A stretch of 50,272 bases of DNA from Acidobacteriota bacterium (GTDB lineage: Bacteria > Acidobacteriota > Terriglobia > Bryobacterales > Bryobacteraceae). How positions within the stretch are numbered: the stretch's first letter is position 1; each line of letters starts with the position of its first letter. Shown here piece after piece: positions 951 through 21,378 of the stretch. Under the pieces are notes generated by a model. That model made no database searches, was not told where the DNA came from, and saw nothing but the letters and a program-made list of their open reading frames with translations. The stretch is taken from the NCBI GenBank assembly GCA_947470805.1, contig CANIVU010000058.1:1-50272 (forward strand). Direction: 5' to 3'. The translations under genes were made by a program, and so were the position numbers.

Positions 951-1938
951 TCACCGGAGTAGCCGGTGGTGATTTTGATTGACGGAGGTCAAGAATGCCG
1001 GGTAGTCCTTCGTCTCATGGATTCGGCATTCGATCATGGCACCGCGGATGACTTCGCCCGCTTTGGGGGACGGGACTTGTGTTCGCGGATTTGTCATCCA
1101 TGCGCGGTGCGCGCAGTAGGGCGGTGCCTGAAAGTCGAGTAGTGATTCAAAGGCCGCGAGCGCAGCGGGGTATCTATCCTTCATTTTTTTTGCAGATTGT
1201 CTCGGTGTAATACTGTGCGATGCCTTCGACAATGTGAATGTCGGCCGAGGCGAACGCATTGACGTCCCAGCGATTGGCGTCGATATCGCGGCCACGATGG
1301 CTGTAGGCGTGGGCCAGTTCGTGGAGGAGCACAACAGTTGTGAGGGCTTCCGGGTCGATGTTGAGTGTTCGTGAAATGAGGCCGATGGCCATCCAGTAGA
1401 TCTGGATCGCAGGGACGCGGAAGAAGTAGGCCCCGAGTATGTCCTGATGGATTGCGGCTAGTTGTTTCTGCAATTCGATCCTTTGCAGTTGCTGGAGATG
1501 GGCCCTGACAATGCGCTCCGCGGCGGCCAGTTGTGTTGTGTCCGGTTCGGGGCTGTGCCGGGCGAGAAAAGCGAGGCCGTCCGCAGTGGTGTTGAGGAGG
1601 GGGAGGTTGAGCATCAGGCGCAGCGTCGTGGTGTCGAGGGGCTGAATGATCGCGGCCAAAGGGCGCGGCAGACCGGGGACGATCTTCATCGGGATCGACT
1701 CTGAATCGTCTCCGACGGTCAGCCGAAACGCCATCTCCGTGCGCAGGTAGTCGCGGAGGATGTTGTTCCATTGGCGAATTGTCCGGCTGACGCGCTCTTC
1801 GAGTTTGGGGTCGAAGTCCGCGAGCAGCGCTTCCAGCTTTCTTTCTTCTTCGGACTGTTTGCGGTTTCCGGGAAGGCTATGTGCCGCGTAGTGGTGGTTG
1901 TGATCCCCAAAGGGAGCAGGCTGTTTTTCAGACGGCAT
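951..1938 (-). pseudogene. HExxH metallopeptidase-like protein, frame broken at an A8 run
   Basis: From ATG 1938 the frame encodes about 250 residues with a zinc-peptidase motif HELAHAYSHRG (about residues 206-216) and a downstream IVEGIAQYY segment whose Glu (about 238) could be the third zinc ligand, as in gluzincins. The frame ends abruptly after TETICKKNEG. Dropping one A from the run of eight A (plus T8 at 1184-1191) continues as CKKMKDRYPAALAAFESLL and on to 951 for about 80 more residues, composed like normal protein. I therefore treat 951-1938 as one gene of about 328 residues that is frameshifted, or corrected by polymerase slippage on A8. It begins 6 bases after the YgjP-like gene and belongs to the hsdR operon. 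I do not recognise the family beyond the zinc motif. The 254-residue truncated form may also be the real product. Confidence 0.6.
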
Positions 1939-1944
1939 TGATGT

Positions 1945-2664
1945 TTAGTATTCCCAGGATTCGTGGCGGACGGGGAGGCGGTTGAGGGTTTGGCGGTGGT
2001 AGCGCCACTTGGGTAGATAGTGGTCCATTAGCGCGATGAAGCGGGCGTTGTGGGTGGGCTCGATGAGGTGGGCGAGTTCGTGGACGATCAGGTATTCGAG
2101 GCACTCGGGGGGCTTTTTTGCCAGGTCTGTGTTCAGGCGGATTCTTGCGGCGGTGTGGGTGCAACTGCCCCACTTGGTTTTCATCCTCTGGATGAAAACC
2201 TGGTTCACCTTTACGCCGAGGATTGGTTCCCACTTCTGCAATAGGGCCGGGATCGCTTCGCGGAGCTGGCGGCGGTACCAGTCGTCCAGGATTTCCTGGC
2301 GGCGCGGTTCGGGGGTGTTGGGTCGCACCCTCAGGATTAGCTTGTTGTGGGATCGGTCGACTGCGGGCGGGGCGTTGTGTTCGATCACCTTCAACAGGTA
2401 GCGCTTGCCCCAGAGGTAGTGGCTTTCGCGTTCGATGTACTCGCGCGGGGTCTCTCGCTCCTGGGCTTGCATCTTGCGCTGCTGCTGTTTGATCCAGGTC
2501 AGTTTTGATATTGCATAGACGCGGATGGTGTCCAAGTCCATTCGCAATGGCGCGGCGATTTTGACTATGCCGTTGGGTGGGTAGACGCTGAGGTGCACGT
2601 TCTTGATGTCCTTGCGGGTGACGTCTACCGTGATGGCGCCGAGCTGGATGGTGGTGGCGGCCAT
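1945..2664 (-). CDS. YgjP-like (DUF45/WLM-related) metallopeptidase
   Basis: The 239-residue protein matches the YgjP/COG1451 family of predicted zinc-dependent hydrolases. It has a beta-rich N-terminal half, the family hallmark KTKWGSC (about 162-168), then LIVHELAHLIEPTHNARF with the HExxH zinc site at 195-199 and a third His near 205, and a C-terminal HRQTLNRLP. The start codon overlaps the hsdR stop (TAATG), so it is translationally coupled to the restriction subunit. Genes of this family often sit beside hsdR in type I R-M loci; their role there is not established, and proteolysis of HsdR is only a hypothesis. The molecule has no signal peptide and should be cytoplasmic. Confidence 0.9.
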   Translation of the reverse strand: MAATTIQLGAITVDVTRKDIKNVHLSVYPPNGIVKIAAPLRMDLDTIRVYAISKLTWIKQQQRKMQAQERETPREYIERESHYLWGKRYLLKVIEHNAPPAVDRSHNKLILRVRPNTPEPRRQEILDDWYRRQLREAIPALLQKWEPILGVKVNQVFIQRMKTKWGSCTHTAARIRLNTDLAKKPPECLEYLIVHELAHLIEPTHNARFIALMDHYLPKWRYHRQTLNRLPVRHESWEY

Positions 2665-5600
2665 TAGTACTCTTTTTGCTGCTGGATGATGAGGAAGACT
2701 CGCTCGACTTCGGCTTTGTCGTTTAGTTCCTGGTAGAGCGCTTGTTTGATTTTGTTCTCTCGCGCCTGGACGCCTCGCCAGGCGTCGGGGCGCACTTTGA
2801 GGATTGCTTCGTGGAGGCGGATGGCCTGTTCTTCGTCGTTGCCCAGATTGCTATAGAGGGCGCGGAGGCCTGGCGTGTTCAGCCGCTCCGGGGTGTCTTC
2901 GGCTTTGCCGGCGTTGACGCGGCGGATGAGCTTTTCGATCTCCTTCAGGTAGGCCTCGTAATCCAACGCTTTCGACTTGCGGGCGGCGATGACTTCGTTC
3001 AGGAGCGCCGACATCTTTTCGTAGAAGGCCGGGTCACTGAGATGCTCCTTGACGATCTTGCTGCGGACGTTGTTCTCGATGGTCTCGGCGATGGCGTCCT
3101 TGTTTCCTTTGACCCCGTTGAGCTTGGAGGCGATCCCGTCGGCGATGCCGGTCTTTACGATGAGATCGAGGAGGCCGATGTTGTCGAAGTCCGATATCGT
3201 GCGGGGGACGGCGGCATCAATGTACGTATCGATCAGGTGGCGCATGTCGGCTTCGTAGGCCTTCAAGTCCAGCACTTCGTCGGCGGCGGTGCGGATGGTG
3301 TCGCGGACCTTGATGTAGTGTTCGAGCTGCCGCTTGATGCGGGCGATGTCGGCTGGGGTATAGCCGGCCTTTTCAAGCTCGTCGGCGATGTTGGCATAGG
3401 CGCGGACGAGGGTGGCGGTGGCCTTGTAGAACGCGGAGCGCTGGGGCTCGCGTTCGGCCAGATCGGAGGCGATTTCGGTGTTGCCGCAGAAGTAGCGGAT
3501 GTGTTCGGTTTCGCCTTTGGGGGGCTCGACTGGCTCGCAGAGGAGGGCGGTGGCTTCGAGGGCATCATCGAGTTGCTGGCGCCCCTTCTCCATGCGGTCC
3601 TGCATGATGACTTCCGGATTGGCGCCGGGGGCGGAGGCGTCGAGTTCCGAGGTATAGACGGCGATGGCTTTTTCGACGTGTTTGAAGAGGTCCTTGTAGT
3701 CGACGATGTATCCGAAGGTCTTGTCGTCGCCATCGAGGCGGTTGGTGCGGCAGATGGCCTGGAAGAGGCCGTGGTCCTGCATGGACTTATCGATATAGAG
3801 GTAGGTACATGACGGGGCGTCGAAGCCGGTGAGGAGTTTATCGACCACGACGAGGAGGCGCATGTTGGCCGGTTCCTTGAGGAAGAGGCGTTTGGCTTCT
3901 TCTTCGTAGGATTCGGTTTTGGTTTTGCCGGGCTGGGCGGCGACGGATTGGAGGAGGTCGGTGTAGGTGTTGTAGATGAACTGCTTGTCGGTTTCGGTGT
4001 TGGCGCCGGTCTCTTCCTTGGTGATGTGGCTGGTGTCCGGGTTGTAGGACGTGATGACGGCGCAGCGGCCCTTGAACGGGGTTTTCTTCAGCAGTTCGAA
4101 GTATTTGCAGGCTTCGTAGATGCTGGAGGTGACGAGGATGGCGTTGCCGCGACCGCTGGAGAGGCGGGCCTTGGTGGAGAAGTCGAACGTGATGTCGGTG
4201 ACGACGCGATCCATGCGGGAACGGGAGGAGAGGACGACCTGCATGGTGCCCCACTTCTTTTTCAGTTCGTCGCGTTGCCAGGCGTTGAGGCCGCGGGTTT
4301 TGGCGTCGAACCATTCGTCGATCTTGTCGGTGGAGCTGAGTTTTTGATCGATGTCGCGGGCCTCGTAGACGAGGTCGAGGACGACTTTGTCTTCGACGGC
4401 TTCGCTGAACTTGTAGGTGTGGATGTAGCCGCCGAAGACTTCGAGGCTGGTGGCTTTGTCCTTCTTGAGGAGTGGGGTGCCGGTGAAGCCGATGAAGACG
4501 GCGTTGGGCATGATGGCGGTCATGACCGTGTGGAGCTTGCCGCTTTGGGTGCGGTGACATTCGTCAACGAAGACGAAGCATTCGCCGACGGCGGTGCTGG
4601 GTTTGGATTCGAGTTCCCGGAGGAAAGCGTCGAAATCGTCGACGTTGCGCTGGCCGAATTTGTGGATGAGGGAGCAGAGGAGGCGGGGGGAGGGCTGGCT
4701 GAGCTGGGTGATGAGGTCGCGGCCGCTTGAGGTGCGGCTGATTTGTTCGCCGGCGTCGGCGAAGACGCGGGCGATCTGGGTGTCGAGTTCGTCACGGTCG
4801 GTAATGATGACGACGCGGGCGCGGGGGTTGTTTTCGAGAATCCACTTGGCGAGGAGGACCATGACGATACTCTTGCCGCTGCCCTGGGTGTGCCAGATGA
4901 TGCCGCCTTTGCGTTGGCGGACTTGTTCCTGGGCGGCCTTGATGCCGAAGTACTGGTGGACGCGGGGGACCTTTTTCCTGCCGGCGTCGAAGAGGATGAA
5001 ATCGTGGATGAGTTCGAGGAGGCGGGCTTTGTCGCAGATTTTGAGGAGGTATTTGTCGAGTTTGCACCGGGTGTTGTCGGCTTCGTCCTCCTTCCATTGG
5101 AGGAAGAACTTTTCTTCCGTTTTGATGGTGCCGTATTGGAGGCCGGCGGAGTCGTTGCCGGCGAGGACGAGTTGGACGGTGGAGAAGAACCAGGAGTGGA
5201 ATTGGTCTTGCTGGTTGGAGAGATTCTGGCGGATGCCGTCGCCGAGGGAGACGCGGCTGTTTTTCAGTTCGAGGACGGCGATGGCGATGCCGTTCAGGTA
5301 GAGAACGATATCGGGGCGGCGTTCGTGGTTGCCCTGGAGGGTGACTTCTTCGGCGATGGCGAAGTGGTTTCGTTCGGGGTGGGCCCAGTTGATGAGGTGG
5401 ACGGTTTCGGTGGTTTGGCGGGCTTCGAGTTTGACCTTCGCGCCGTAGCGGAGGAGGTTGTAGACGGCGTGGTTGTTGCCGTAGAGGTTGCGGGCGTGGT
5501 TGTTGGCTTCTTTTTGCAGTATGTCGATGGCGCGAGCAATCTGGGCGGCGGAGTAGCGGTCTTTGAGGTGGTCGGCGAGGAGGTTTTCTTCGATGTTGGA

Positions 5601-5711
5601 GTTGGCGGCGCGGTCGCGCCAGTCGCCCACGTATTCGTAGCCGAGTTCGTTTTTGAAGAGGTTGATTACGCGCTCTTGGGTGGCGCGTTCGGATTTGCCG
5701 ATGTCGCTCAT
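2664..5711 (-). CDS. hsdR: Type I restriction enzyme R subunit (HsdR)
   Basis: The 1015-residue motor and nuclease subunit of a type I restriction enzyme. From ATG 5711 the order is: a PD-(D/E)xK nuclease site (Asp near 134 in RRPDIVLYLN, then ELK at 148-150), Walker A TQGSGKS (275-281), DECH Walker B (383-386), motif III GFTGTP (408-413), later superfamily-2 helicase motifs (VVDKLLTGFDAPS, ICRTNRLDG), and a helical C-terminus for binding HsdM/HsdS. I chose ATG 5711 because typical HsdR proteins start close to SDIGKSERATQERV. An open frame runs on for 81 codons to 5954 but encodes a decayed regulator fragment. The gene should assemble with HsdM and HsdS encoded about 4 kb upstream on the same strand; toxin-antitoxin genes separate them. 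All catalytic motifs look intact. Confidence 0.96.
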   Translation of the reverse strand: MSDIGKSERATQERVINLFKNELGYEYVGDWRDRAANSNIEENLLADHLKDRYSAAQIARAIDILQKEANNHARNLYGNNHAVYNLLRYGAKVKLEARQTTETVHLINWAHPERNHFAIAEEVTLQGNHERRPDIVLYLNGIAIAVLELKNSRVSLGDGIRQNLSNQQDQFHSWFFSTVQLVLAGNDSAGLQYGTIKTEEKFFLQWKEDEADNTRCKLDKYLLKICDKARLLELIHDFILFDAGRKKVPRVHQYFGIKAAQEQVRQRKGGIIWHTQGSGKSIVMVLLAKWILENNPRARVVIITDRDELDTQIARVFADAGEQISRTSSGRDLITQLSQPSPRLLCSLIHKFGQRNVDDFDAFLRELESKPSTAVGECFVFVDECHRTQSGKLHTVMTAIMPNAVFIGFTGTPLLKKDKATSLEVFGGYIHTYKFSEAVEDKVVLDLVYEARDIDQKLSSTDKIDEWFDAKTRGLNAWQRDELKKKWGTMQVVLSSRSRMDRVVTDITFDFSTKARLSSGRGNAILVTSSIYEACKYFELLKKTPFKGRCAVITSYNPDTSHITKEETGANTETDKQFIYNTYTDLLQSVAAQPGKTKTESYEEEAKRLFLKEPANMRLLVVVDKLLTGFDAPSCTYLYIDKSMQDHGLFQAICRTNRLDGDDKTFGYIVDYKDLFKHVEKAIAVYTSELDASAPGANPEVIMQDRMEKGRQQLDDALEATALLCEPVEPPKGETEHIRYFCGNTEIASDLAEREPQRSAFYKATATLVRAYANIADELEKAGYTPADIARIKRQLEHYIKVRDTIRTAADEVLDLKAYEADMRHLIDTYIDAAVPRTISDFDNIGLLDLIVKTGIADGIASKLNGVKGNKDAIAETIENNVRSKIVKEHLSDPAFYEKMSALLNEVIAARKSKALDYEAYLKEIEKLIRRVNAGKAEDTPERLNTPGLRALYSNLGNDEEQAIRLHEAILKVRPDAWRGVQARENKIKQALYQELNDKAEVERVFLIIQQQKEY

Positions 5712-5783
5712 GGTGTGGTTGGTTCGTCCTGCGGCGGGCGGGTAACCTGATGTTGCTCGGCTGTTATTTGATGATACTAAGGT

Positions 5784-5954
5784 CTGGTTTGTGAAAACGG
5801 TTTGAGACGAAACGAATCTGTACCCATCGTAATCGGCCCCTTCGAGGCGAGAGAAGGCAGACTTGGCCGTGCCGACGCGTGCCGCGAGTTCTAGTCCAGC
5901 CTTCGTGCGAAGAACTTCAGTCAATGGCTCGTCTGCTTCGGCGGAGGCCGGCAA
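5784..5954 (-). pseudogene. Remnant of an XRE-family HTH antitoxin, in frame with hsdR
   Basis: The 57 codons from 5954 read RTKAGLELAARVGTAKSAFS followed by RLEGADYDGY. This is clearly a copy of the helix-turn-helix in the intact XRE protein at 7322-7645 (NTKAGLTQQELAACVGTTKS, then TISRLEDADYDGH), with a three-codon deletion (TQQ) inside the HTH and loss of everything after DGY. The nucleotide match is strong over about 95 bases (5821-5915 versus roughly 7418-7520). The deletion removes the turn region, so it should not bind DNA. It follows vapC by 15 bases and stays open into hsdR without a stop, so an N-terminally extended HsdR cannot be excluded but is not expected. Confidence 0.75.
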
Positions 5955-9499: not shown

Positions 9500-10801
9500 T
9501 CAGACGCTGCTGCCTGTTGCCTCGGATTGATCGACGGGTGGGACGAGGCGGATTTTGCCGGTTAGGAGTTCCTGCATCATGGCCTGTTTGAGGTGGCGGG
9601 CTTTGGTGAGTTTGGCTTCGAGGGCGTTGATTTCGCCGTCCATGTCGGAAAGGACGGCGGCGATGGATATCTGTTCCTGCAACACTGGTAGCTCGAATTG
9701 CGTTTTCATGAGAGCCGTTTTTGAAAGATTGTAACGGGTTGCGCCCTGGGCCAATGATTTCAGTAGTTCCCGGCCTTGTTGACTTCGGAAGTAGTAGGCC
9801 AGGTAAAGCCCGTCCGCTCGATTTGGGTCCCGAAGTCGATACCCAAAGCAAAAACTGTTCAGGAATACACTCCGAGCATCTTTTGTCAAAACCGAGCACA
9901 TACCGACTTCTTCAGGGGTCTCGGACGAGCCGTTGAAAAAGAGATCGCCCTTGCATACCGAGTTCTGGCTTTCAGTTGGCTGGACGTCCACGGATTCAAA
10001 TGTTGTGGAATCGACCACTACGTTAGACATGATGTTCATGAAGGTAATGTACTTGGCCGAGCCAGTTCCGAAGTGACGCTTACTCTTTCCCGTTAGCCCG
10101 CCGTAAGTAGTCCCTAGCTTACCCAGTTGAACAGTCTCCCATGCACTGCTAAAGCCGGGGAGGCGTTTTTTGCCGGTGAGCAATTCCTGCATGGCGCCTT
10201 GTTTGAGGAGGCGCTTTTTGGCGAGGAGTTGCTCCAGGGATTCGATGAGGGCGTCCGCGTCGGTCAATGCCTCGGCGATGGCTTCTTGTTCCACCCGAGT
10301 TGGGGGAAGTGGGACCTGCAGATGCTTCAATGAACCGGCGTTTACGTTTTTCTGCCCGCCACCAATCTGGTTCTGCGCGAAGTACAGTTGACCTATTTCA
10401 GAATTGATAAAACAGCACAGGTAAGTTGAATCAACGGCACCCTTGCGTGGTCGAATGATTAACGTTGTAAAGCTCTGTGCTCCCTCATGTTTTTGCGGGA
10501 CGATTGCCGTAGTTCCGGGGTATCCAGTTCTCGCGGTCAACAGGTCGCCTGCCCGAAGTCGCTTGTTCTTGAAGGTCGCCTCATAGGACTCGGAAATGTG
10601 AAGGATATCCGAATCATCGAGATGTCCTGGCTTAATGTTTTGGTTTCTGAACAAAACGATGCCGTTGTCCCGGTATGCATGCGTTGCCGCACTCGCAATC
10701 CCGACCATGATTTTGTCGGCGATCTGGTGTAACTCTGCTACCGACCAATCGGCCGGGATAACTCCGACCTCTGTGCGTTTGTAGCCGGGCTTCAGTTCCA
10801 T
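9500..10801 (-). CDS. hsdS: Type I restriction enzyme specificity subunit (HsdS)
   Basis: The 433-residue protein has the two-TRD design of HsdS. TRD1 is about residues 15-170. A central conserved helix contains KKRLLKQGAMQELLTGKKRL. TRD2 begins near WETVQLGKLG, and the second conserved helix has KARHLKQAMMQELLTGKIRL. The near-identical 'LKQ-MQELLTGK-RL' repeats are the coiled-coil spacers that set the distance between the two half-sites. The start overlaps the hsdM end by 10 bases, showing translational coupling. HsdS directs both methylation by HsdM and cleavage by HsdR. The target sequence cannot be inferred from the protein. Confidence 0.95.
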   Translation of the reverse strand: MELKPGYKRTEVGVIPADWSVAELHQIADKIMVGIASAATHAYRDNGIVLFRNQNIKPGHLDDSDILHISESYEATFKNKRLRAGDLLTARTGYPGTTAIVPQKHEGAQSFTTLIIRPRKGAVDSTYLCCFINSEIGQLYFAQNQIGGGQKNVNAGSLKHLQVPLPPTRVEQEAIAEALTDADALIESLEQLLAKKRLLKQGAMQELLTGKKRLPGFSSAWETVQLGKLGTTYGGLTGKSKRHFGTGSAKYITFMNIMSNVVVDSTTFESVDVQPTESQNSVCKGDLFFNGSSETPEEVGMCSVLTKDARSVFLNSFCFGYRLRDPNRADGLYLAYYFRSQQGRELLKSLAQGATRYNLSKTALMKTQFELPVLQEQISIAAVLSDMDGEINALEAKLTKARHLKQAMMQELLTGKIRLVPPVDQSEATGSSV

Positions 10802-13191
10802 TCGAACCCCATCTTGATGAAGTGGATCCGCACGGATTCCTCTAAAGTGACCACACGAGCGGCCATTTGCGATACGGGCCCGTCATATCTCTCTGCCCAG
10901 GTCAAGATTCGCCGGGCGAGTTCCTGGCTGACTTGGTCTACTTCAGTGCTCGACGATCGGCCTATGGCGCCGAGCCACTTATCCTCAACGACGAGCGTCT
11001 TTATCTCAGCCTCGGAGAGCGTCGGGTAATGGGCGTAAGCCTTTGCGTCGAGTTCAGCTTCAGCCTCCCTGAGCCGCCGTTTGTAATCGGATTCCTTGTC
11101 GTTGAGCGAAATCCATTCGGAGAGCACAGCAGCCTCGACGGCCGCGTCCTTATCGCGCTTGATTTCCCTGAGCCGAACGGCGACGCTGGCCTTGTTGACC
11201 TTATCGAGCTCCGAGAACGCCCCCTCGTCGCCACCGTGCTCCTCTTCGAGTTCGGTCAATCGCGCGGTGACGGTTTCGAGTTCGGCGGTGAGATCGTCGA
11301 TGGCAGCCTGTTCGGCGGCGTAGTAGCGGGCAACAATTAGCGATTTGGGAATGAGGTCGCAGGCCCAGCCTTTGTCCTTCTCCTTGCCGTTCTTCTTCTC
11401 GATGACGCGATAGGTCTCCGCCTTCCAGCCATCGGCGGCGATGAGGTAGCAATCGTCCTGCATGGTTTCGGCCCAGTAGTCCATGAGGTGCTGGTAGACA
11501 TCGTAGGCGTCGATGAGGGGCTTATCGAGATAGTGCTTCAGCAGATCCTCTGCTAACGCGGCGATGACCTGTTTGGGATGGCAGCCGGGTTCGAGCGCTT
11601 TCAAGGTGGCGGCGGCGCGATCGCGCCAGATAGCGAAGTGCGCATTCATTCCGGCGATGAAGGCGGAGAACTCCGGGTGGGTGTAGATGGTCGCCTTGAT
11701 GGCGGACTGTTCCACGGCGAGATCGACGTAGCCGGGGCGGTTGGGTTTGAAGAGCGCCTCGCGGAGAGTGGGGCAGACGGCCCAGTAGGGGGCGAGCGAA
11801 TCGATATCGCGGACGGGGACGCCGCCGCGGAGGTGGGCGTCGATATCTTGGAGGTCCTCTTCCTGCTGGCTATCAATGTAGCGTGGCAGGTTCAAGTTGA
11901 AATCGTTCTTTTCGATTTCCTCGAAGGGGACGAGGCGGGAGAACCTGGGGACATCGAGCTGGCGGTTGAAGACATCGACGATGCGGTGGATATCCTGGGC
12001 GCGGAGGCGGTTTTTGGGGCCATCTTTGGCGTATCCGGAGCTGGCATCGACGAGGAAGATGCCTTTGCGGGTGTGGGCTTCCTGCTTATCGAGCACGACG
12101 ATGCAGGCGGGGATGCCGGTGCCGTAGAAGAGATTGGCGGGGAGGCCGATGATTCCTTTTATGTAGCCTTTGCGGACGAGGTTGCGGCGGATTTCGCCTT
12201 CGGCGTTGCCGCGGAAGAGGACGCCGTGGGGGAGGATGCAGGCGCCTTTGCCGGTGTTTTTGAGGGAACGGACGATGTGGAGGAGGTAGGCGTAATCGCC
12301 TTGTTTGGCGGGCGGGATGCCGAAGGTTTGGAAGCGGTTGAAGGGGTCGTTGGCGGGGTCGAGACCGGTGGACCAGCGTTTGTCGGAGAAGGGGGGATTG
12401 GCGACGACGTAATCGAAGGTTTTGAGCTGGGTGCCGTCGGTGAATTTGGGGTCGGTGAGGGTGTTGCCGGGGAGGATGAGGGCTTCGGAGTTGTCATGCA
12501 GGTGCATGTTCATTTGGGCGAGGCCGGAGGTGGCGGCGTCCTTTTCCTGGCCGTAGAGGGTGAGTTTGGCGGGGGCGACTTCGTCGGCGACTTTGAGGAG
12601 GAGGGAGCCGGAGCCACAGGTTGGGTCGTAGACCGTGGTATCGGCAGTGATTTTGGCGGTGCGGACGCCGAGGATTTGGGCGATGATGCGGCTGACTTCG
12701 GCGGGGGTGTAGAACTGGCCTTTGCTTTTGCCACTTTCGGTGGCGAAGTGGCGCATGAGGTATTCGTAGGCGTCGCCCAAGATGTCGTCGCCGTCGGCGC
12801 GGTTTTTGGAGAAGTTGAGTTCGGGCTTTTCGAAGATGGCGATTAAGTTGGTGAGACGGTCGACCATCTCTTTGCCGGAGCCGAGTTTGGCGGGGTCGTT
12901 GAAATCGGGGACGTTGGCGAGTTTATTGGCTTGGGCGAGGGGGGCGATGATGCGTTTGTTGATCTGGTCGCCGATGTCGGGTTTGCCTTTGAGGGCGACC
13001 ATGTCGGCGAAGCTGGCGCCATCGGGGATGGTGACGGGGGCGAAGGGGAGGCCGGCGTATTTATCGCTGACGTATTTGATGAAGAGGAGGACGAGGACGT
13101 AGTCCTTGTACTGGCTGGCGTCCATGCCGCCGCGGAGTTCGTCGCAACTTTGCCAGAGGGAGCTGTAGAGTTCGGATTTCTTGAGGGCCAT
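10792..13191 (-). CDS. hsdM: Type I DNA methyltransferase subunit (HsdM), long form
   Basis: The 799-residue N6-adenine methyltransferase subunit. The N-terminal helical HsdM domain (YKDYVLVLLFIKYVSDKYAG, about 29-48) is followed by QFYTPAEVSRII, motif I DPTCGSGSLL (189-198) for AdoMet binding and catalytic motif IV NPPF (265-268). It is some 250-300 residues longer than classical HsdM. The extension includes a strongly charged predicted coiled coil (IDDLTAELETVTARLTELEE, then a KRDKDAAVEAA region). The hsdS start overlaps its 3' end. It methylates the host target and forms the core with HsdS. No clear Shine-Dalgarno precedes ATG 13191. Confidence 0.95.
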   Translation of the reverse strand: MALKKSELYSSLWQSCDELRGGMDASQYKDYVLVLLFIKYVSDKYAGLPFAPVTIPDGASFADMVALKGKPDIGDQINKRIIAPLAQANKLANVPDFNDPAKLGSGKEMVDRLTNLIAIFEKPELNFSKNRADGDDILGDAYEYLMRHFATESGKSKGQFYTPAEVSRIIAQILGVRTAKITADTTVYDPTCGSGSLLLKVADEVAPAKLTLYGQEKDAATSGLAQMNMHLHDNSEALILPGNTLTDPKFTDGTQLKTFDYVVANPPFSDKRWSTGLDPANDPFNRFQTFGIPPAKQGDYAYLLHIVRSLKNTGKGACILPHGVLFRGNAEGEIRRNLVRKGYIKGIIGLPANLFYGTGIPACIVVLDKQEAHTRKGIFLVDASSGYAKDGPKNRLRAQDIHRIVDVFNRQLDVPRFSRLVPFEEIEKNDFNLNLPRYIDSQQEEDLQDIDAHLRGGVPVRDIDSLAPYWAVCPTLREALFKPNRPGYVDLAVEQSAIKATIYTHPEFSAFIAGMNAHFAIWRDRAAATLKALEPGCHPKQVIAALAEDLLKHYLDKPLIDAYDVYQHLMDYWAETMQDDCYLIAADGWKAETYRVIEKKNGKEKDKGWACDLIPKSLIVARYYAAEQAAIDDLTAELETVTARLTELEEEHGGDEGAFSELDKVNKASVAVRLREIKRDKDAAVEAAVLSEWISLNDKESDYKRRLREAEAELDAKAYAHYPTLSEAEIKTLVVEDKWLGAIGRSSSTEVDQVSQELARRILTWAERYDGPVSQMAARVVTLEESVRIHFIKMGFEWN

Positions 13192-13382: not shown

Positions 13383-13952
13383 TTACAGAGCGGGGAGGGA
13401 GATACTGGAGACCTCACAGAAGTAGACGACGAAGGCTGGGATGGCCTTGTGGAGGACGCGGAGTTGCGCCGGGAGAGTTCGCCGGATATCGGCGGCCTGT
13501 TGGTGGAGGACTGTGGTTACGGCTGTTGGGTCCGCTTGGTGGAGCGCTTTAAGGAAGGCGCTGGGGCCTACGGCGGTGACGCGCCACGGGTGCGTAGCGG
13601 CCGGCGGGAAGTGGCGGAGATTGTAAGTGAGGAGCGTCGGGGCGGCGGCGTGGGCCGCGGCGGCTAGGACGTGGCGGTCCTTGTCGTCATTGGTCATGCG
13701 GGGGGTGAGGGCGTCGAAACCGGTGAGCCACGATTCCGGGAAGTGCTCCCGGAGGACGTTTTCCAGACGAGCGATCCGGTTCGGTGGGATTCCGAATTGA
13801 TTCTGGAGGGTGCGGCGGACCTCTTCGAATATCTGCTCCGACCAAAGGGGCCGGAAGAGTTGGGGGCCTTCGGCGAGGCGAAGAAGTGTGTCTCGTAGCG
13901 GGGCTTGCACGAGGACATTGGCGTCCAAGAGAACAAGCGGCGATGCGCGCAT
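13383..13952 (-). CDS. PIN-domain toxin (PIN_3-like) partner of an excisionase-type HTH protein
   Basis: The 189-residue protein starts MRASPLVLLDANVLVQAPLR, with the first PIN Asp in LDANVL. Conserved features follow: EEVRRTLQNQFGIP, then MTNDDKDRHVLAAAAHAAAP with the central acidic cluster, and LLTYNLRHFP near the end of the domain. ATG 13952 lies 11 bases after the stop of the HTH gene upstream. The frame is open far upstream but only this part is protein-like. PIN proteins next to excisionase-family HTH proteins are a known toxin-antitoxin arrangement. The last 50 or so residues are less conserved. Confidence 0.85.
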   Translation of the reverse strand: MRASPLVLLDANVLVQAPLRDTLLRLAEGPQLFRPLWSEQIFEEVRRTLQNQFGIPPNRIARLENVLREHFPESWLTGFDALTPRMTNDDKDRHVLAAAAHAAAPTLLTYNLRHFPPAATHPWRVTAVGPSAFLKALHQADPTAVTTVLHQQAADIRRTLPAQLRVLHKAIPAFVVYFCEVSSISLPAL

Positions 13953-13963
13953 GCGTTTGGCCG

Positions 13964-14392
13964 CTATTCGTCCTGGGCACCGGGGGGGAGGATGACGGCG
14001 TCGTAGGTGCCGGCGGTCACGTCCTCCCGCGCCAGGGTGCGTATGGCGGTGTGTCGGGCACGGTCGCGACGGGTTTTGTAAGCCAGCAGGTCCCGATACA
14101 TGACGCGGCGGTGCGTTCCTACCTTGTGGAACGGCAGGTGGCCCGCTTCCAACAGGCTGACCAGATAGGGGCGCGAAACGCCTAGCAGGCCGGCCGCGCG
14201 CTGGGTGGTTAACTCCTGCTGCTCGGCGATGACAGAGACCGACATGCCGGCTTCCATGCTTCTGGCGATTTGGGATAGGAGTGTTTGTACGTCTGGCGGC
14301 AGGGCCACACTCTTCCCGCCCTTGCCGACCAGCTTGGGAGTGGTTGTCTGCAAAAGACGGCGGAGCTGACTGTACTGATTGGCGGTTGCCAT
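13964..14392 (-). CDS. Excisionase-family HTH antitoxin
   Basis: The 142-residue protein contains an MerR/excisionase-type helix-turn-helix: LTTQRAAGLLGVSRPYLVSL LEAGHLPFHKVGTHRRV, about residues 61-97, the fold seen in the 'excisionase family DNA-binding domain' (TIGR01764). Its N-terminal part (QYSQLRRLLQTTTPKLV) and acidic C-terminus are typical for antitoxins that precede PIN_3-type toxins. A GGAG sits just upstream of ATG 14392. The region above has a repeated ATTTCG and a TTCGAA core (about 14417-14437) that may be its operator. Confidence 0.85.
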   Translation of the reverse strand: MATANQYSQLRRLLQTTTPKLVGKGGKSVALPPDVQTLLSQIARSMEAGMSVSVIAEQQELTTQRAAGLLGVSRPYLVSLLEAGHLPFHKVGTHRRVMYRDLLAYKTRRDRARHTAIRTLAREDVTAGTYDAVILPPGAQDE

Positions 14393-14564
14393 GGGAGCCT
14401 CCGCTTACAGTGTTGCATATTCGAAATAAGCGAAATGGAAGCGAGGGCTCCCAGCGCAGGGTTCGGGCGGATGGCGGGGCGACGGTTTGGTTGGGGCGGT
14501 TGACGGATATGGCGGGTTTCGGGAGGATGAGAGTCTTCCGCTTTTGCGTTGGGACCCTTTCGTT

Positions 14565-15257
14565 ATGACTCCTTCTTTTCGGCTTTTTGGCGGTTTTCTG
14601 CTTTGTTGCTTCCTGGCTGCTTGTGGCGGCGGGGGGAAGGAGGCGAAGGCACCGGCTCCCTCTTCCGCCGCCTCGCCCGCTCCGGCCGCGGAGGTTTCTC
14701 CGCTGGTTTTTGCCGGTGGGAAACGGCCGAATCCGCCTATGGGGTGTCAGTGGGTGATGCAGTCCCTGGAGATGCCGGGGGATGAGTTTTTGTTTTACCT
14801 GGGGGCTGAGTGCCAGGGGAAGATTCGGAGGTTGGAGTACAACGGCGGGGCGCATAAGGCGGAGTTGAAATTTGATGAGAAGAGCCCGGCGGTGGTGGAG
14901 ATCTGGAGCGCGGAGCCGGGGCAGGGGCCGAAGGCGGTTGAGGGTCATGTACGGGGAATGTTAAAGAAAGCCGAGGCCGCCAAATGCTTTGTGCGGCCCG
15001 CTCGGAATGAGTTCTTCCCCGCCGATGCGCTGGTGGTGGACGTCAGTGACGCCGAGGCGGCGAAGGCTCCGAAAGATGAGCCTCGGAATGCTTGCGGACA
15101 GTATGGGTTGGATGAGGATTCACAGTCCTTCTGGCGCGTGTTTCAGGGGTATGCGTGGTATTTCAATTTGGGTCAGGATGAGCCGGAGATTGATCCGGGT
15201 TCGCTGACGCTGGCTCGGAAGGATGTGAACGGGAAATGGGTGGCCGTGGGGCGGTAG
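14565..15257 (+). CDS. Putative lipoprotein of unknown function
   Basis: The 230-residue protein begins with a lipoprotein signal peptide MTPSFRLFGGFLLCCFLAAC; the lipobox LAAC places the lipidated Cys at 20. A low-complexity Gly/Ala/Pro/Ser linker follows (GGGGKEAKAPAPSSAASP), then a compact domain with several Cys (MGCQWVMQSLEM; YLGAECQGKIRRLEY; KCFVRPARNEFFPADALVVD). It is likely anchored in the inner or outer membrane facing the periplasm. I do not recognise the domain. ATG 14565 is chosen because it begins the signal peptide. Confidence 0.75.
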   Translation: MTPSFRLFGGFLLCCFLAACGGGGKEAKAPAPSSAASPAPAAEVSPLVFAGGKRPNPPMGCQWVMQSLEMPGDEFLFYLGAECQGKIRRLEYNGGAHKAELKFDEKSPAVVEIWSAEPGQGPKAVEGHVRGMLKKAEAAKCFVRPARNEFFPADALVVDVSDAEAAKAPKDEPRNACGQYGLDEDSQSFWRVFQGYAWYFNLGQDEPEIDPGSLTLARKDVNGKWVAVGR

Positions 15258-16268: not shown

Positions 16269-17405
16269 TTAGTGGCCGAGGAGGAAGCGGCGGCAGGGTT
16301 TTTCCACGGCGAAATAGAGAATCGCCGCAGCGCCGGCGGCGCACGCTAAGCACAATGGGGCGGCCAGCCAGAGGGTGGCCGCCGGAAGTGCCTGGCGCGC
16401 GATCAGGGGAAAGATCAGCACCGAGAAGAGCTTGACCACCGGGCCGTGCACCAGATAGAAGGAGTAACCGGTGCGGCCGAAGGCGGCCATGCGGCGCGCG
16501 AGGGGGCGCTGGCCCTGGGCGGGATAGCGGCTTTGCAGGACGATGGCCACGAAGACAATTGTCGTGACCGCGATGAGGCCGGTGGCCACAAAGGAGAACT
16601 GCGCGAAGAGGCCGGGCCAGCCGGCGCCGATGAGATGGCCGTCGAGCAGGGCGCGGTAGAGGACGGCGCCGAGGCAGATGGCGGTGGCCCAACGGAGGAT
16701 GCCGGGGCGATGGTGGGGGAGCCATTCGGCGCGCTTGAGTTCGAATACCAGATACCCGGCTGGGATATAGGCGAAACGGGCCGGGGGCGTCCCCAGGGTG
16801 AGTCCCGCGACGAGAATGAACGCGACGAGAGAGGCCCAGACGGCGTTGCGGACCGGGGCTCCCCAGGCGAGCCGGCGCAGGGCGATGCCTACCAGGGGAA
16901 GGGTGACGTAGCCAGCGACGATGTAGCTGAGCGTCCAGGTGACCGTGAGAAAGGGATGATCGGGAAACAGGCCGGGGAGGAGCAGGGTTTGTTGCAGGAT
17001 GTGCCGCCAACTGAGGGCTTCGGGCGGGAGACGGGTGTAGCCGGGTGCGAAGGCGGAAAACAGGATGGCCAAGGTGAGGACCGTCAGGTAGGGCACATAG
17101 ATCCGCACGATGCGGAGCCAGACGAAGCGGGCATAGGGAAAGCGGCCGGTGGCAAGGTTGTGGGCCAGGAAGTAGCCGCTCAGTAGTAACAGCAGGTTCG
17201 TGCCCGTGGAGCCGATACGGGCGGCGGTCCATTCAGTGGCGTCCAGCAGCGGCTCGCCCTGCGTGAAGGGAGCGACGAGGCCGGCGTAGTGGTAGAAGAA
17301 GACGAGGAGTGCTGCGACGGCACGAAGGATATCGAAGACCGGTAGGCGGGCGGATTCGATCCGGGTGGGTGAAGGAGTAGGAGTGGAAAGAGCGGTTGCT
17401 GCCAT
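16269..17405 (-). CDS. Acyltransferase-3 family membrane protein (OafA/YrhL-like)
   Basis: The 378-residue protein has about ten hydrophobic segments and the acyltransferase-3 start FDILRAVAALLVFFYHYAGL with the conserved His near residue 37, followed by LLLLLSGYFLAHNLATGRFP and FVWLRIVRIYVPYL, whose Arg residues are characteristic. The C-terminus has GYSFYLVHGPVVKLFS. Such enzymes transfer acetyl or other acyl groups to cell-surface carbohydrates or lipids. ATG 17405 is favoured over 17420. A possible -10 TATAAA lies on the minus strand at 17442-17437. It converges with the MBL gene, with only 10 bases between them. Confidence 0.92.
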   Translation of the reverse strand: MAATALSTPTPSPTRIESARLPVFDILRAVAALLVFFYHYAGLVAPFTQGEPLLDATEWTAARIGSTGTNLLLLLSGYFLAHNLATGRFPYARFVWLRIVRIYVPYLTVLTLAILFSAFAPGYTRLPPEALSWRHILQQTLLLPGLFPDHPFLTVTWTLSYIVAGYVTLPLVGIALRRLAWGAPVRNAVWASLVAFILVAGLTLGTPPARFAYIPAGYLVFELKRAEWLPHHRPGILRWATAICLGAVLYRALLDGHLIGAGWPGLFAQFSFVATGLIAVTTIVFVAIVLQSRYPAQGQRPLARRMAAFGRTGYSFYLVHGPVVKLFSVLIFPLIARQALPAATLWLAAPLCLACAAGAAAILYFAVEKPCRRFLLGH

Positions 17406-17605
17406 GGCGAAAGACTCCAAGGCGGATTACTTTCCCTTTATAACCCGCGGACCGCATAGGACTCTCGCTTTTTTCGGTCGGATTATTCCGGGTTGGGAGC
17501 TCCTGAGGGCGCCGGCGAGGGGTGGGCGCGCCGCTTTTTTTCCGTCGCCGGGATGGGGGTGGTCATCTCTCCTGCTGTGAGGGTTGTTCTGAGCGGGACG
17601 TATCG

Positions 17606-17755
17606 ATGAAGAACGTGAAGAAAGCCGACCTGCCGACGAAGATCTGTGCGGTGTGCCACCTGCCATTTACCTGGCGGAAGCGGTGGGCGCGGGTGTGGGA
17701 CGAGGTTCGCTATTGCAGCGAACGTTGCCGGCGGAACCGGAACGGGCGGGGATGA
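17606..17755 (+). CDS. DUF2256 small protein
   Basis: The 49-residue protein has [20 protein letters not shown] followed by a [17 protein letters not shown] segment, the whole DUF2256 motif. Two Cys pairs (CAVC and CSERC) could bind zinc or an iron-sulfur cluster. Its stop codon overlaps the next start (ATGA at 17752-17755). DUF2256 proteins often neighbour FAD-binding photolyase-like genes, and that holds here; a role as a metal or cofactor partner is inference. ATG 17606 is chosen because conservation begins right after it. Confidence 0.9.
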
Positions 17756-18546
17756 CGGGGCCGTTGCGGGGCGCGTTTGCGACGCGCGAGGAGCTACTGG
17801 CATACCTTCGCGCGGAGTTTCCGCGGGCTGTGGCCGCGGAGTCCGGTTTGAGTCCGATTCGCGGGGGGCGGAGGGAGGCGCTGGCGCGGTTGGGCGCGAT
17901 TGAACCGGTTGGCTATGCGCGGACGAGGAATTTTCTGGAGGGCGGGGTGACACGGCTTTCCCCGTATATCCGGCATGGGGTGCTGACGCTGGGGGAAGTT
18001 TGGCGGCACGCCTGTTCCCTGGTGGGGGAACGGCGGGAACGGGCGGCGAAGTTTGCCAGTGAACTGGCCTGGCGCGACTACTGGCAACGGCTATACGCCG
18101 AGTGGGGCAGCGGGGTGTGGGAGGACCGGGAGGGCTATAAGACGGGCTTTCGCGCCGAGGAGTATGACGACACGTTGCCGGAGGAGATTGCGCGGGGCCG
18201 TACGGGGTTAGCTTGTATAGACGCCTTTGCCACGGAGCTGCGGCAGACGGGTTACCTGCACAACCATGCGCGGATGTGGGTGGCGGCGTATGTGGTGCAC
18301 TGGCGGCGGGTGCGGTGGCAGGCCGGGGCGCGGTGGTTTCTGACGCATCTGCTGGATGGCGATCCGGCGTCGAACAACCTGTCGTGGCAGTGGGTGGCTT
18401 CCACCTTTTCGCATAAGCCGTACTTCTTCAATCGGGAGAATTTGGAGAAGTACACGGAGGGCCGGTATTGCAGCCAATGCCAGGCGGAGTGCCCGTTTCG
18501 GGGGAGTTATGAGGCGCTGGGGGAGAGGCTGTTCCGGATTCTATGA
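17752..18546 (+). CDS. FAD-binding photolyase/cryptochrome-like protein without antenna domain
   Basis: The 264-residue protein matches only the helical FAD-binding domain of the photolyase family: [32 protein letters not shown], the core [20 protein letters not shown] followed by [10 protein letters not shown], and [20 protein letters not shown]. The N-terminal alpha/beta antenna domain of a standard photolyase is missing, so this resembles short photolyase-like proteins. The tail has [13 protein letters not shown], a Cys cluster (C-x2-C-x3-C) that might bind an Fe-S cluster or zinc. It overlaps its neighbours on both sides by ATGA. Whether it repairs DNA or senses light is unknown. Confidence 0.9.
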
Positions 18547-18950
18547 AACTGCATTGGGTACACTCGGATAGCCTGCGCGCCGATTGGCTGGACGCGGCGC
18601 GGGGGCCGGCGGTGTTTGTGTTCGACGACCGGCAGTTGGAGGCGGAGAACTGGAGCCTGCAGCGGATCGGGTTTGTGTATGAATGCCTGCTGGAGATACC
18701 GGGGGTGGAGATCTGGCGGGGGGCGGTGGCGGAGACGCTGGGCCGTTTGGTTGCCGAGCGCAGGTTGGAAGGGGTTGTGGCGGCGCGGACGCCGGACCCG
18801 TGGTTGCAGGCCGAGGGCGCGGCGTTGGCGGCGGCTGGGGTACGGGTGGAGTGGGTGGAGCCGGAGGCGTTTGTGACGCTGCGGGGGCGGGTGGATCTGG
18901 GGCGGTTTTCGCGGTATTGGCGGAAGGCGGAGGGGGCGTTGCTGGGATGA
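18543..18950 (+). CDS. Small protein resembling a detached photolyase alpha/beta (antenna) domain
   Basis: The 135-residue protein starts [20 protein letters not shown], then PAVFVFDDRQL, RIGFVYECLLEIPGVEIWRG and LEGVVAARTPDPWLQAEGAA, ending near VRVEWVEPEAFVTLRG. The order (strand with 'W-V-H-S-D-S-L-R', 'G-P-A-V-F-V-F-D-D', a helix with 'L-L-E', a strand after it, 'A-A-L-A-A-A-G-V-x-V') follows the Rossmann-like N-terminal domain of photolyases. It lies between the FAD-only protein and the full photolyase and overlaps both by ATGA-type junctions. I infer it is the separately encoded antenna-like domain; a structure-based comparison is needed to be firm. Confidence 0.6.
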   Translation: MKLHWVHSDSLRADWLDAARGPAVFVFDDRQLEAENWSLQRIGFVYECLLEIPGVEIWRGAVAETLGRLVAERRLEGVVAARTPDPWLQAEGAALAAAGVRVEWVEPEAFVTLRGRVDLGRFSRYWRKAEGALLG

Positions 18951-20365
18951 TGGAGGTGGTTTGGTTCAAGCGCGATTTGCGGGTGGCCGATCACGCGCCG
19001 CTGGTTGAGGCGAGCCGGCGGGGGGCGGTGCTGCCGCTCTACATTGTGGAGCCGGAGGTGCTGGCGGGAGAGGACTACAGCGCTTGCCACTGGACTTTTA
19101 CGGCGGGGTGTTTGCGCGACTTGCGGCGGGAGCTGGCGGCGCTGGGGCAGCCGCTGGTGGTGCGGGTGGGCGAGGCGCTGGCGGTGTTGCAACAGATCCA
19201 CGCCGAGCATGGCATTGCGAGGCTGTGGTCCCACGAGGAGACGGGGAACGCGATTACCTACCGGCGGGACCTGGCGGTGGGCCGGTGGGCGCGGGCGGCG
19301 GGTATTGCGTGGCAGGAGACGCCGAATGGGGGCGTGGTGCGGCGGTTGCAGGGGCGCGACGGGTGGGCGCGGCAGTGGGAGGCGCGGATGGGGGCGGCGA
19401 TTGTGCCGGCGCCGGAGGGGTTGCGCGGGGTGGGGCTAGAGCCCGGGGCGATACCGGAGGGGCGGGAACTGGGATTGGGGCCGGACCGTACGCAGGGTGC
19501 GCAGGCGGGCGGGGCACGGGCGGGGCGGACGCTGTTAGACAGTTTCCTGGCGGGCAGGGGGGCGCGGTATCACCTGGAGATGTCGTCGCCGGTGACGGCG
19601 GTGAATAGCTGTTCGCGGTTGAGTCCGCATTTGGCGTATGGGACGATTTCCACGCGGATGGTGGTGCAGCGGTTGCGGGAGCAGAAGGGGCGGGCGTGGA
19701 GCGCCTTCGACGCGCGGTTGCACTGGCGGGACCACTTCATGCAGAAGCTGGAGGACGAGCCGGCGATTGAGCTTCAGAACTTCGTGCGTGGGTTCGACGG
19801 GTTGCGGGAGAACGATTTCGATGGGGAGCGGTTCGCGGCGTGGGCGGAGGGGCGGACGGGGTATCCGATGGTGGATGCGTGCATGCGGTGTTTGCGGGAG
19901 ATGGGGTGGATCAACTTCCGGATGCGGGCGATGCTGATGTCGTTTGCGGCGTATCATCTGTGGCTGCACTGGCGGCCGGTGGGGCTGCACCTGGCGCGAC
20001 TGTTTGTGGACTATGAGCCGGGGATTCATTGGAGCCAATGCCAGATGCAGTCCGGCACGACGGGGATCAATACGCTGCGCATTTACAACCCGTTGAAGCA
20101 GGCGGAGGATCACGATCCGGAGGGGGTGTTTGTGCGGCGGTGGATTCCGGAGTTGGACGGGGGCTATCCGGCGCCGATTGTGGAACACACCGAGGCGGTG
20201 CGGGCGGCGCGGGCGCGGCTGGGGGAGTTCCGGCGGCGGGAGGGTGTGTGGGCCGATATTCAGCAGGTGGCGCGGAAGCATGGGAGCCGGAAGGGGCGGG
20301 CGCCGAGGCCCAAACGGATGGCGAAGCAGCAGTTGGGGCTGTTCGACGGCGAGGCGGCGGGTTAG
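18947..20365 (+). CDS. phrB: Deoxyribodipyrimidine photolyase / cryptochrome family protein
   Basis: The 472-residue protein has the complete two-domain architecture: an N-terminal alpha/beta domain ([20 protein letters not shown], then LWSHEETGN) and a helical FAD domain ([85 protein letters not shown]). It should bind FAD and repair UV dimers with blue light. The FAD core '[10 protein letters not shown]' differs from the classical 'H-N-R-x-R' form, so a cryptochrome-like subgroup is possible. ATG 18947 overlaps the preceding stop; 18950 is an alternative. Its 3' end overlaps the convergent aldolase gene by 4 bases. Confidence 0.93.
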
Positions 20366-21378
20366 GCGGAGCGATAGCGCTCGGCCATGGCGGCGAGAGG
20401 GATGGGGGCGTAGTCCCCGGCGTGGCCGGCCTGGCCGAAGGCGGACATGCGTTCCATGACCACCTGTTGCATCGCTTCGCGGGCGGGCTTGAGGTAGGCG
20501 CGTGGATCGAACTCCTCCGGGCTTTCGGCGAGGAGGCGGCGGACGGCGGCGGTCATGGCCATGCGGCCGTCGGTATCGACGTTGACCTTTCGGACGCCGT
20601 TGCGGATGCCGAGTTGAATTTCGTCGAGGGGGACGCCGTAGGTTTGGCGGATTTTGCCGCCATAGCGGTTGATTGCGTCCTGCAAGTCCTGGGGCACGCT
20701 GGAGGAGCCGTGCATGACCAGATGGGTGTTGGGCAGGCTGCGGTGGATCTGGAGAATGAGATCCATGACGAGAGTGGAGCCGGTTGGTTTGCGGGAGAAC
20801 TTGTAGGCGCCGTGGCTGGTACCGATGGCGACGGCGAGGGCGTCGACACCGGTGCGTTCGACGAATTCGACGGCCTGGGCGGGATCGGTGAGGCGGGCCA
20901 AGCCATGGAGCCCGGCGCCGTGGCCATCTTCGACGCCGCCGAGGCAGCCCAGTTCGCCTTCCACGGTGACGCCGCGGGCGTGGGCCATTTCGACGACCTG
21001 GCGGGTGACCTGCACATTGTATTCAAACGACGCGGGCGTCTTGCCGTCTTCGAGAAGGGAGCCGTCCATCATGACGCTAGTGAAGCCCATTTCGATGGAT
21101 TTGCGGCAGGAATCGGGGCTGTTGCCGTGGTCCAGATTGAGGGCGACGGGGACGTCGGGATAGAGTTCGAGGGCGGCGGCGATGAGGTGTTTGAGAAAGA
21201 CGTCGTCGGCATAGCCGCGGGCGTTGCGGCTGGCTTGGACGATGACCGGGGATCGGGTGGCGCGCGCGGCCTCGAAGATGGCCTGGGTCTGTTCCAGGTT
21301 GACGATGTTGAAGGCGCCGACGCCGTAGCCGCCAATGGCGGCCTCGTCCAGCATCTGGCGCATCGAAACTAGTGGCAT
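20362..21378 (-). CDS. fba: Class II fructose-bisphosphate aldolase family protein
   Basis: The 338-residue protein is a zinc-dependent class II aldolase. It has [40 protein letters not shown] with the catalytic-site Asp and zinc His, [19 protein letters not shown] and [10 protein letters not shown], followed by [14 protein letters not shown]. These match the long 'Calvin-type' subgroup. It could cleave fructose- or tagatose-1,6-bisphosphate. The start overlaps the MFS gene end by 10 bases. Together with the dehydrogenase, carrier and PfkB kinase next door it would complete a short catabolic route to triose phosphates, so a specialised substrate is as likely as glycolytic use. Confidence 0.93.

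Follow-up and report, generated by a model that had tools for sequence, protein, structure and literature searches.

A four-gene locus from an Acidobacteriota bacterium that probably encodes one photolyase as two separate polypeptides

A contig from an Acidobacteriota bacterium (CANIVU010000058.1, positions 1 to 50,272; this whole stretch of 50,272 nucleotides is referred to as the window) carries four genes on the same strand at 17606-20365 (+), which encode a DUF2256 protein, a FAD-only photolyase, a small protein of 135 aa and a full photolyase. The locus raises the question of whether the FAD-only protein and the small protein act separately or together form one enzyme. Our analysis indicates that the products of 17752-18546 and 18543-18950 are probably the two halves of one light-driven photolyase, made as separate polypeptides, and that the enzyme most likely repairs cyclobutane pyrimidine dimers (CPDs). 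The computed parts of this reading are the domain identity, the co-occurrence of the two genes, the unlinked pairs, the natural fusions and the conserved residues. The four reading frames and the three ATGA overlaps that join them were all found at the positions given in the first-pass annotation, and every start codon after the first in the block overlaps the preceding stop codon as ATGA. The features of the block are as follows.

17606..17755, + strand: DUF2256 gene; 49 aa with two cysteine pairs, zinc-ribbon-like; PF10013, E 7.5e-23
17752..17755, + strand: ATGA stop/start overlap of the DUF2256 and FAD-only genes, read from the sequence
17752..18546, + strand: FAD-only photolyase of the SPL / Phr4 type (putative catalytic half); 264 aa; PF03441, E 3.4e-27
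18061..18072, + strand: Glu104 to Trp107 (ELAW), the catalytic Glu and Trp positions; aligned with ELAW of 1owl
18214..18216, + strand: codon of Cys155, putative Fe-S ligand one of four; conserved as Cys in 93 of the 97 aligned rows
18262..18276, + strand: Asn171 to Met175 (NHARM); aligned with NRCRM of 1owl
18469..18492, + strand: codons of Cys240, Cys243 and Cys247, putative Fe-S ligands two to four; conserved as Cys in 93, 94 and 93 of the 97 rows, respectively
18543..18546, + strand: ATGA stop/start overlap of the FAD-only and small-protein genes, read from the sequence
18543..18950, + strand: predicted stand-alone photolyase alpha/beta (antenna) domain of the Phr5 type; 135 aa
18947..18950, + strand: ATGA stop/start overlap of the small-protein and full photolyase genes, read from the sequence
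18947..20365, + strand: full two-domain protein of the photolyase/cryptochrome family; 472 aa; PF00875, E 4.7e-24, and PF03441, E 1.6e-55

Two samples of genomes were searched for the FAD-only and small proteins: 150 genomes from the window's order and 194 from the phylum to which the cyanobacterium G150 belongs. In the order sample the small protein was found in 29 genomes and the FAD-only protein in 28, with both present in 28; G103 had the small protein only. The corresponding figures for the cyanobacterial sample were 34, 35 and 34. The genome without the small protein was G187, whose match to the FAD-only protein was weaker, at 43% identity and E 8.7e-47. Over both samples, 62 of the 63 genomes with a FAD-only match also had the small domain, either separate or fused, the exception being the weak match in G187. 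Fisher tests gave 1.5e-29 for the order and 3.7e-37 for the cyanobacteria, with kinship among the genomes not accounted for. The small-protein homologue of G103 (L033, 1453-1905, -) is diverged, stands alone and lies, as judged by eye, beside a MiaB-like gene; no FAD-only gene was found in that genome. In G085 and G069 a DUF2256 gene is followed by a short remnant of a FAD-only gene (L169, about 1247-1629, and L170, about 1486-1742, respectively), and the small protein was not matched in either genome; the FAD-only and small genes seem to have been lost together there while DUF2256 stayed.

The two genes were also compared for position. Eighty loci were kept from 358 relatives in the genome collection, and 68 of them have the FAD-only gene upstream in the same orientation. 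One of the remaining 12 (L044) begins at a contig edge and the other 11 are cyanobacterial; for all 10 of these that were searched (L074 was not), the FAD-only gene was found elsewhere in the genome. When linkage was counted on 34 cyanobacterial genomes, leaving out G187 because it has no small protein, the genes were adjacent in 16 (gap <600 bp), 0.9-1.9 kb apart in 3 and unlinked in 15; of these 15 genomes, 8 have both genes on one contig with 34 kb or more between them and 7 have them on separate contigs.

The two parts also occur in one reading frame, with the FAD domain first. This arrangement was found in 6 of the 80 loci (five distinct proteins; those of L112 and L113 are identical), and the fused relatives recorded were L054, L058, L105, L063, L112, L113, L144, L145 and L147. 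Fusions were seen in some Acidobacteriaceae, in picocyanobacteria and in Deinococcus; three of four Deinococcus plasmids carry a fusion with the FAD domain first, and on the fourth the two genes are separate and overlap at an ATGA. A quick tree built on the FAD-only part put the fused forms of Acidobacteriaceae, picocyanobacteria and Deinococcus at different places, although its well-supported branches may be compatible with a single origin. Since AlphaFold2 gave a pLDDT of 90.0 and a pTM of 0.90 for the fusion L063, its two domains are predicted to form one body. The small protein belongs with the FAD-only protein, and co-occurrence, unlinked pairs and natural fusions, all obtained by computation, give good support to the earlier suggestion that the two rebuild one enzyme in trans.

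The small protein itself had no Pfam match at E values up to 1. PF00875 was detected in 15 of 30 members of its family at the same threshold, with a best value of 1.2e-5. Comparison of the family with 22 class-I-like N-domains using hhalign gave a Prob of 97 over 130 columns, and comparison with 15 N-domains of the fourth gene's family gave 75.8; the control comparison, with the FAD-only family, gave 0.9. An AlphaFold2 model of the small protein had a pLDDT of 92.4, and rows 1-24 from Foldseek and rows 1-26 from VIA were all photolyases or cryptochromes. Of the seven matches that the small-protein profile made in 249 Pseudomonadota genomes, five covered N-terminal regions of ordinary photolyases, encoded by open frames of 466-499 aa, with E values from 8e-5 to 1e-3. 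Profile, ancestry and predicted fold identify the small protein as a photolyase alpha/beta (antenna) domain, as its description as antenna-like had anticipated.

The FAD-only protein matched PF03441 at residues 101-225 of 264, and PF00875 was not matched in it in the Pfam scan. Its best solved relatives were 1tez and 1owl (E about 3e-22) and 4u63, which is named as a class III photolyase in the structure-search listing. By sequence, the protein has FAD_binding_7 without an N-terminal PF00875 domain and is closest to class I/III CPD photolyases, and it belongs to the class that Xu et al. 2021 named SPL. The class I/III-like FAD domain and the missing N-terminal alpha/beta domain are both shared with SPL as described in the accessible parts of that literature (Xu et al. 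2021; PMC9649867, PMC9178010, PMC9498864).

This assignment raises the alternative that the FAD-only protein is active alone, as a minimal photolyase, and that the small protein is an accessory such as an optional antenna or a stability factor. In the portions available, SPL proteins are called a class of CPD repair enzymes, described as being without the alpha/beta domain and linked to a cited view that they represent the ancestor of the family (PMC9649867), and they likewise appear as CPD repair enzymes or possible ancestors in PMC9498864. The near all-or-none co-occurrence of the two genes is difficult to reconcile with a dispensable accessory, and in G069 and G085, where only a FAD-only remnant persists, the small gene is missing as well. 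Activity of the FAD-only protein alone is therefore considered distinctly less probable than a two-part enzyme, although it keeps some weight. A repair assay was reportedly once done on a Rhodococcus SPL by Xu and colleagues.

Conservation in the FAD-only family was assessed on an alignment of 97 rows, comprising 96 distinct rows plus the window protein, which is itself also among the 96; identical copies were removed, as were matches shorter than 215 residues or scoring below 200 bits. The Glu and Trp of the ELAW motif, which are catalytic in CPD photolyases, were each kept in 95 of the 97 rows, the Asn in 97 and the Met in 96. Asn and Met form the CPD-type pair, and eukaryotic (6-4) enzymes have His there. 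The first-pass annotation had described a FAD-only photolyase-like protein with a cysteine cluster, which was borne out: PF03441 is present without PF00875, and Cys155, Cys240, Cys243 and Cys247 are kept in 93-94 of the rows. The 155-240-243 spacing is that of the Fe-S cysteines 169-254-257 given for Phr4 of marine Synechococcus in the accessible text of PMC9426592. Four rows lack the four-cysteine set (L051, L057, L060 and L103, from Chloroflexota and Planctomycetota pairs), and these form one group in the tree with an SH-aLRT of 90, where 95 was taken as strong. Because the CPD-type active-site residues and the four Fe-S-type cysteines are kept, CPD photorepair would be expected rather than light sensing.

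With respect to the lesion, Haney et al. 2022 predicted from the cysteines and the UV-C phenotype of Synechococcus that the Phr4/Phr5 pair repairs (6-4) photoproducts (PMC9426592, available parts). For the pair in the window this is a minority possibility, and it overlaps with the reading of a two-part enzyme. The four cysteines resemble those of the Fe-S (6-4) photolyases, and according to the same portions of that source the phr4 mutant had lower survival after UV-C and not after UV-B. In contrast, the active-site residues match those of class I CPD enzymes in nearly all rows, as counted above, and the FeS-BCP entries 4dja and 3zxs were absent from the 44 PDB sequences that reached an E value of 1e-3 or better. 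The FeS-BCP (6-4) photolyases (4dja PhrB, 3zxs CryB) share with the pair the cysteine set and the folds of both parts, but differ in being one chain with the opposite domain order; they also have other active-site residues. Class I CPD photolyases (1owl, 1tez) share both domains and the aligned catalytic residues and differ in the same two respects, one chain and opposite domain order. The four-cysteine set is not known as a feature of class I enzymes.

A further alternative is that the two parts are joined into one polypeptide by programmed frameshifting at the FAD-only/small junction. Haney et al. weighed this for phr4/phr5 and left the choice between two chains and a frameshift product open (PMC9426592, available parts). 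True fusions do exist, and the adjacent genes of marine Synechococcus have a strictly kept spacer (same source). However, the window has an ATGA restart signal at the junction and lacks a slippery heptamer within 18461-18560, and the genes are unlinked in 15 of the 34 cyanobacterial genomes. Two chains are favoured over a frameshift product because of these unlinked pairs, and frameshifting is regarded as improbable.

The label of light sensor that the operon had first been given was not sustained. Membership of a family in which some members are sensors is all that speaks for a blue-light sensor (cryptochrome) system; the Pfam scan found no signalling domain or regulator in the four-gene block, and the CPD-type catalytic Glu, Trp, Asn and Met are kept in 95-97 of the 97 rows. 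Together with the UV-C survival phenotype of the Synechococcus phr4 mutant, as given in the accessible text of PMC9426592, this makes a sensor system very improbable.

The fourth gene encodes a full two-domain member of the photolyase/cryptochrome family, in line with its annotation as a full photolyase, since both PF00875 and PF03441 were matched. It has a second in-frame ATG at 18950, an Arg at the catalytic Glu position of the aligned enzymes, and IHWSQ where 2e0i has INNGN. Of the 28 order genomes that have the pair, 9 showed this gene behind it, in flanks of about 1.5 kb, some of them cut by contig ends. The least probable alternative is that the small protein serves the full photolyase (18947-20365), as its antenna or regulator, and not the FAD-only protein. 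It draws on the adjacency and ATGA overlap of the two genes and is very improbable, given that the full photolyase has its own PF00875 domain, that it was seen after the small gene in those 9 genomes of 28 and that in the observed fusions the partner of the small domain is the FAD-only protein.

The DUF2256 protein of the window scored 80.8 bits against PF10013, for which the cut-off is 25. In the order sample DUF2256 was found in 34 of 150 genomes, including 26 of the 28 with the pair (the exceptions were G054 and G067); it adjoins the FAD-only gene of the pair in 22 and lies elsewhere in 4 (G049, G058, G098 and G106). In the cyanobacterial sample it was found in 89 of 194 genomes, including all 35 with a FAD-only match, and by the listed coordinates it was adjacent to the FAD-only gene in none. 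Fisher tests of the association gave 6.4e-20 (order) and 1.6e-14 (cyanobacteria), again with kinship not accounted for. Because DUF2256 accompanies the FAD-only gene in 26/28 and 35/35 genomes but also occurs in many genomes without it, the pair nearly implies DUF2256, whereas DUF2256 does not imply the pair. G040 and G052, two genomes of the order that lack the pair, have DUF2256 immediately ahead of a gene related to the fourth one (L175, L178), which hints at a wider role with the photolyase family. The proposal that DUF2256 is a partner of the enzyme thus holds as a genomic association, and the cofactor or metal role attached to it is a guess. DUF2256 is frequent among very small proteins (PMC11796252, available parts), and a literature search made largely without subscription papers returned nothing joining DUF2256 and photolyase.

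For the two-part photolyase favoured here, we infer the binding of the halves, the pigment, the cluster, CPD repair and the role of DUF2256. The FAD-only and small chains would be made by coupled translation, with restart at ATGA on one message. The catalytic half would carry FAD, the substrate pocket and probably a structural [4Fe-4S] cluster, and the small half would supply the alpha/beta domain that ordinary photolyases have at the N-terminus. The two chains would associate, most likely in a manner close to that of the natural fusions, in which the FAD domain precedes the small one. On its FAD side the enzyme would be closed by the small half, which may contain a pigment for light harvesting. 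The complex would use blue or near-UV light to repair UV lesions, most likely CPDs. DUF2256 would assist the enzyme, maturation or the handling of the cluster or metal being a guess, and the fourth gene would provide a family member of ordinary layout, probably from the same transcript.

The first-pass annotation had put the locus forward as an undescribed system, but the arrangement was already reported as Phr4/Phr5 in marine Synechococcus by Haney et al. 2022, with the two genes fused as phr6 in two Cyanobium strains; in E. coli, phr4/phr5 shielded cells from UV-C about equally in light and dark (PMC9426592, available parts). Both systems have a FAD-domain gene followed by a separate gene for the other photolyase domain, in reversed order, with four Fe-S-type cysteines and a fused form (Phr6) in some strains. 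They differ in that phr4 and phr5 are separated by a 7-bp spacer whereas the window has an ATGA overlap, and in that the window has DUF2256 in front, a full photolyase behind and a host of another phylum. Unlinked copies, which were found here, are not mentioned in the accessible parts of PMC9426592. Copies from Synechococcus and Cyanobium strains other than RS9916 lie in the same FAD-only family tree.

A FAD domain placed first and a small domain second is also shared with NewPHL / Phr7, and NewPHL and SPL have been equated and ascribed an inverted topology (PMC13274461, PMC9426592, the equation and topology in the former; both as far as accessible). The NewPHL-like plasmid proteins found here, taken for NewPHL, differ in being single chains of about 390-410 aa. 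They came from 10 non-Deinococcus plasmid matches, with 7 of 8 frames used (L189 was left out) and 6 in the tree. When their C-terminal part, the Z-domain of NewPHL, was compared with the small protein by hhalign, the link was weak (Prob 23 across 45 columns, 7 sequences). NewPHL is said to have been described by Emmerich and co-workers in 2020. A gene for a FAD- or NAD(P)-dependent oxidoreductase was seen upstream of the SPL or NewPHL-like gene at L055 (2192-3211), L149 (1695-2639) and L188 (549-1493), loci from an alphaproteobacterial metagenome-assembled genome and two Asticcacaulis plasmids.

The pair or fusion was found in six phyla: Acidobacteriota, Cyanobacteriota, Chloroflexota, Planctomycetota, Pseudomonadota and Deinococcota. 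It was rare in Pseudomonadota, where 2 genomes out of 249 had it, including the one on which the sample was centred. L041, titled Acidimicrobiia, was not counted as a further phylum, its match pattern being close to that of the acidobacterial L040. In the literature search PMC9426592 was the sole match on reverse domain order in photolyases and a baculovirus paper the sole match on a split photolyase, and the phylum spread, the unlinked pairs, the fusions of Acidobacteriaceae and Deinococcus and the tie to DUF2256 were not met in the literature searched. The six-phylum spread, the unlinked pairs, the further fusions and the statistical DUF2256 tie are new here.

A second set of all four genes was found in the same assembly (G000) on contig C30, at about 1302-3833 (L001, L004, L034), with 68-78% protein identity to the window set (L034). 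The assembly comprises 8.7 Mb in 220 contigs with a listed contamination of 3.1%, given which C30 may be a foreign contig. The gene order DUF2256, FAD-only, small recurs in other genera of the window's family. Because of this recurrence and the second set on C30, the block is more than a chance arrangement, and the search of other genomes thus upheld a conserved neighbourhood, one that extends to the fourth gene in the minority of order genomes noted above. In the tree the window's FAD-only protein clusters with the C30 copy and with L035, from Candidatus Sulfopaludibacter sp. SbA3 (Acidobacteriota). The sampled genomes of the same genus that have the pair carry a more distant FAD-only form without the fourth gene behind it, and the window form may therefore have been acquired laterally.

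The block is flanked on the opposite strand by genes for an acyltransferase (16269-17420, -) and a class II fructose-bisphosphate aldolase (20362-21378, -). Elsewhere the window carries type I restriction-modification genes, with HsdS and HsdM at 9500-13191 (-) and 2664-5954 (-), near which a 1096-aa frame may be a candidate HsdR. Next to these genes lies a 521-aa frame (13383-14948, -) whose sole match is a PIN domain at residues 339-444.

In its strongest form, which is possible but doubtful, the finding would mean that SPL-type photolyases are obligate two-subunit or permuted fused enzymes in at least six phyla, that the proposal of a one-domain ancestor falls, and that DUF2256 is a dedicated assembly factor for the enzyme and some of its relatives. 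The association with the photolyase pair would give DUF2256 a lead to its function. SPL has been described without an alpha/beta domain, in the accessible parts of its literature, and the class is defined by the missing antenna domain; in the two samples searched here that domain was present after all, encoded by the adjacent gene, by a gene at another site of the genome, or within the same protein downstream of the FAD domain. If the two proteins are indeed halves of one enzyme, SPL proteins should be assayed together with their partner.

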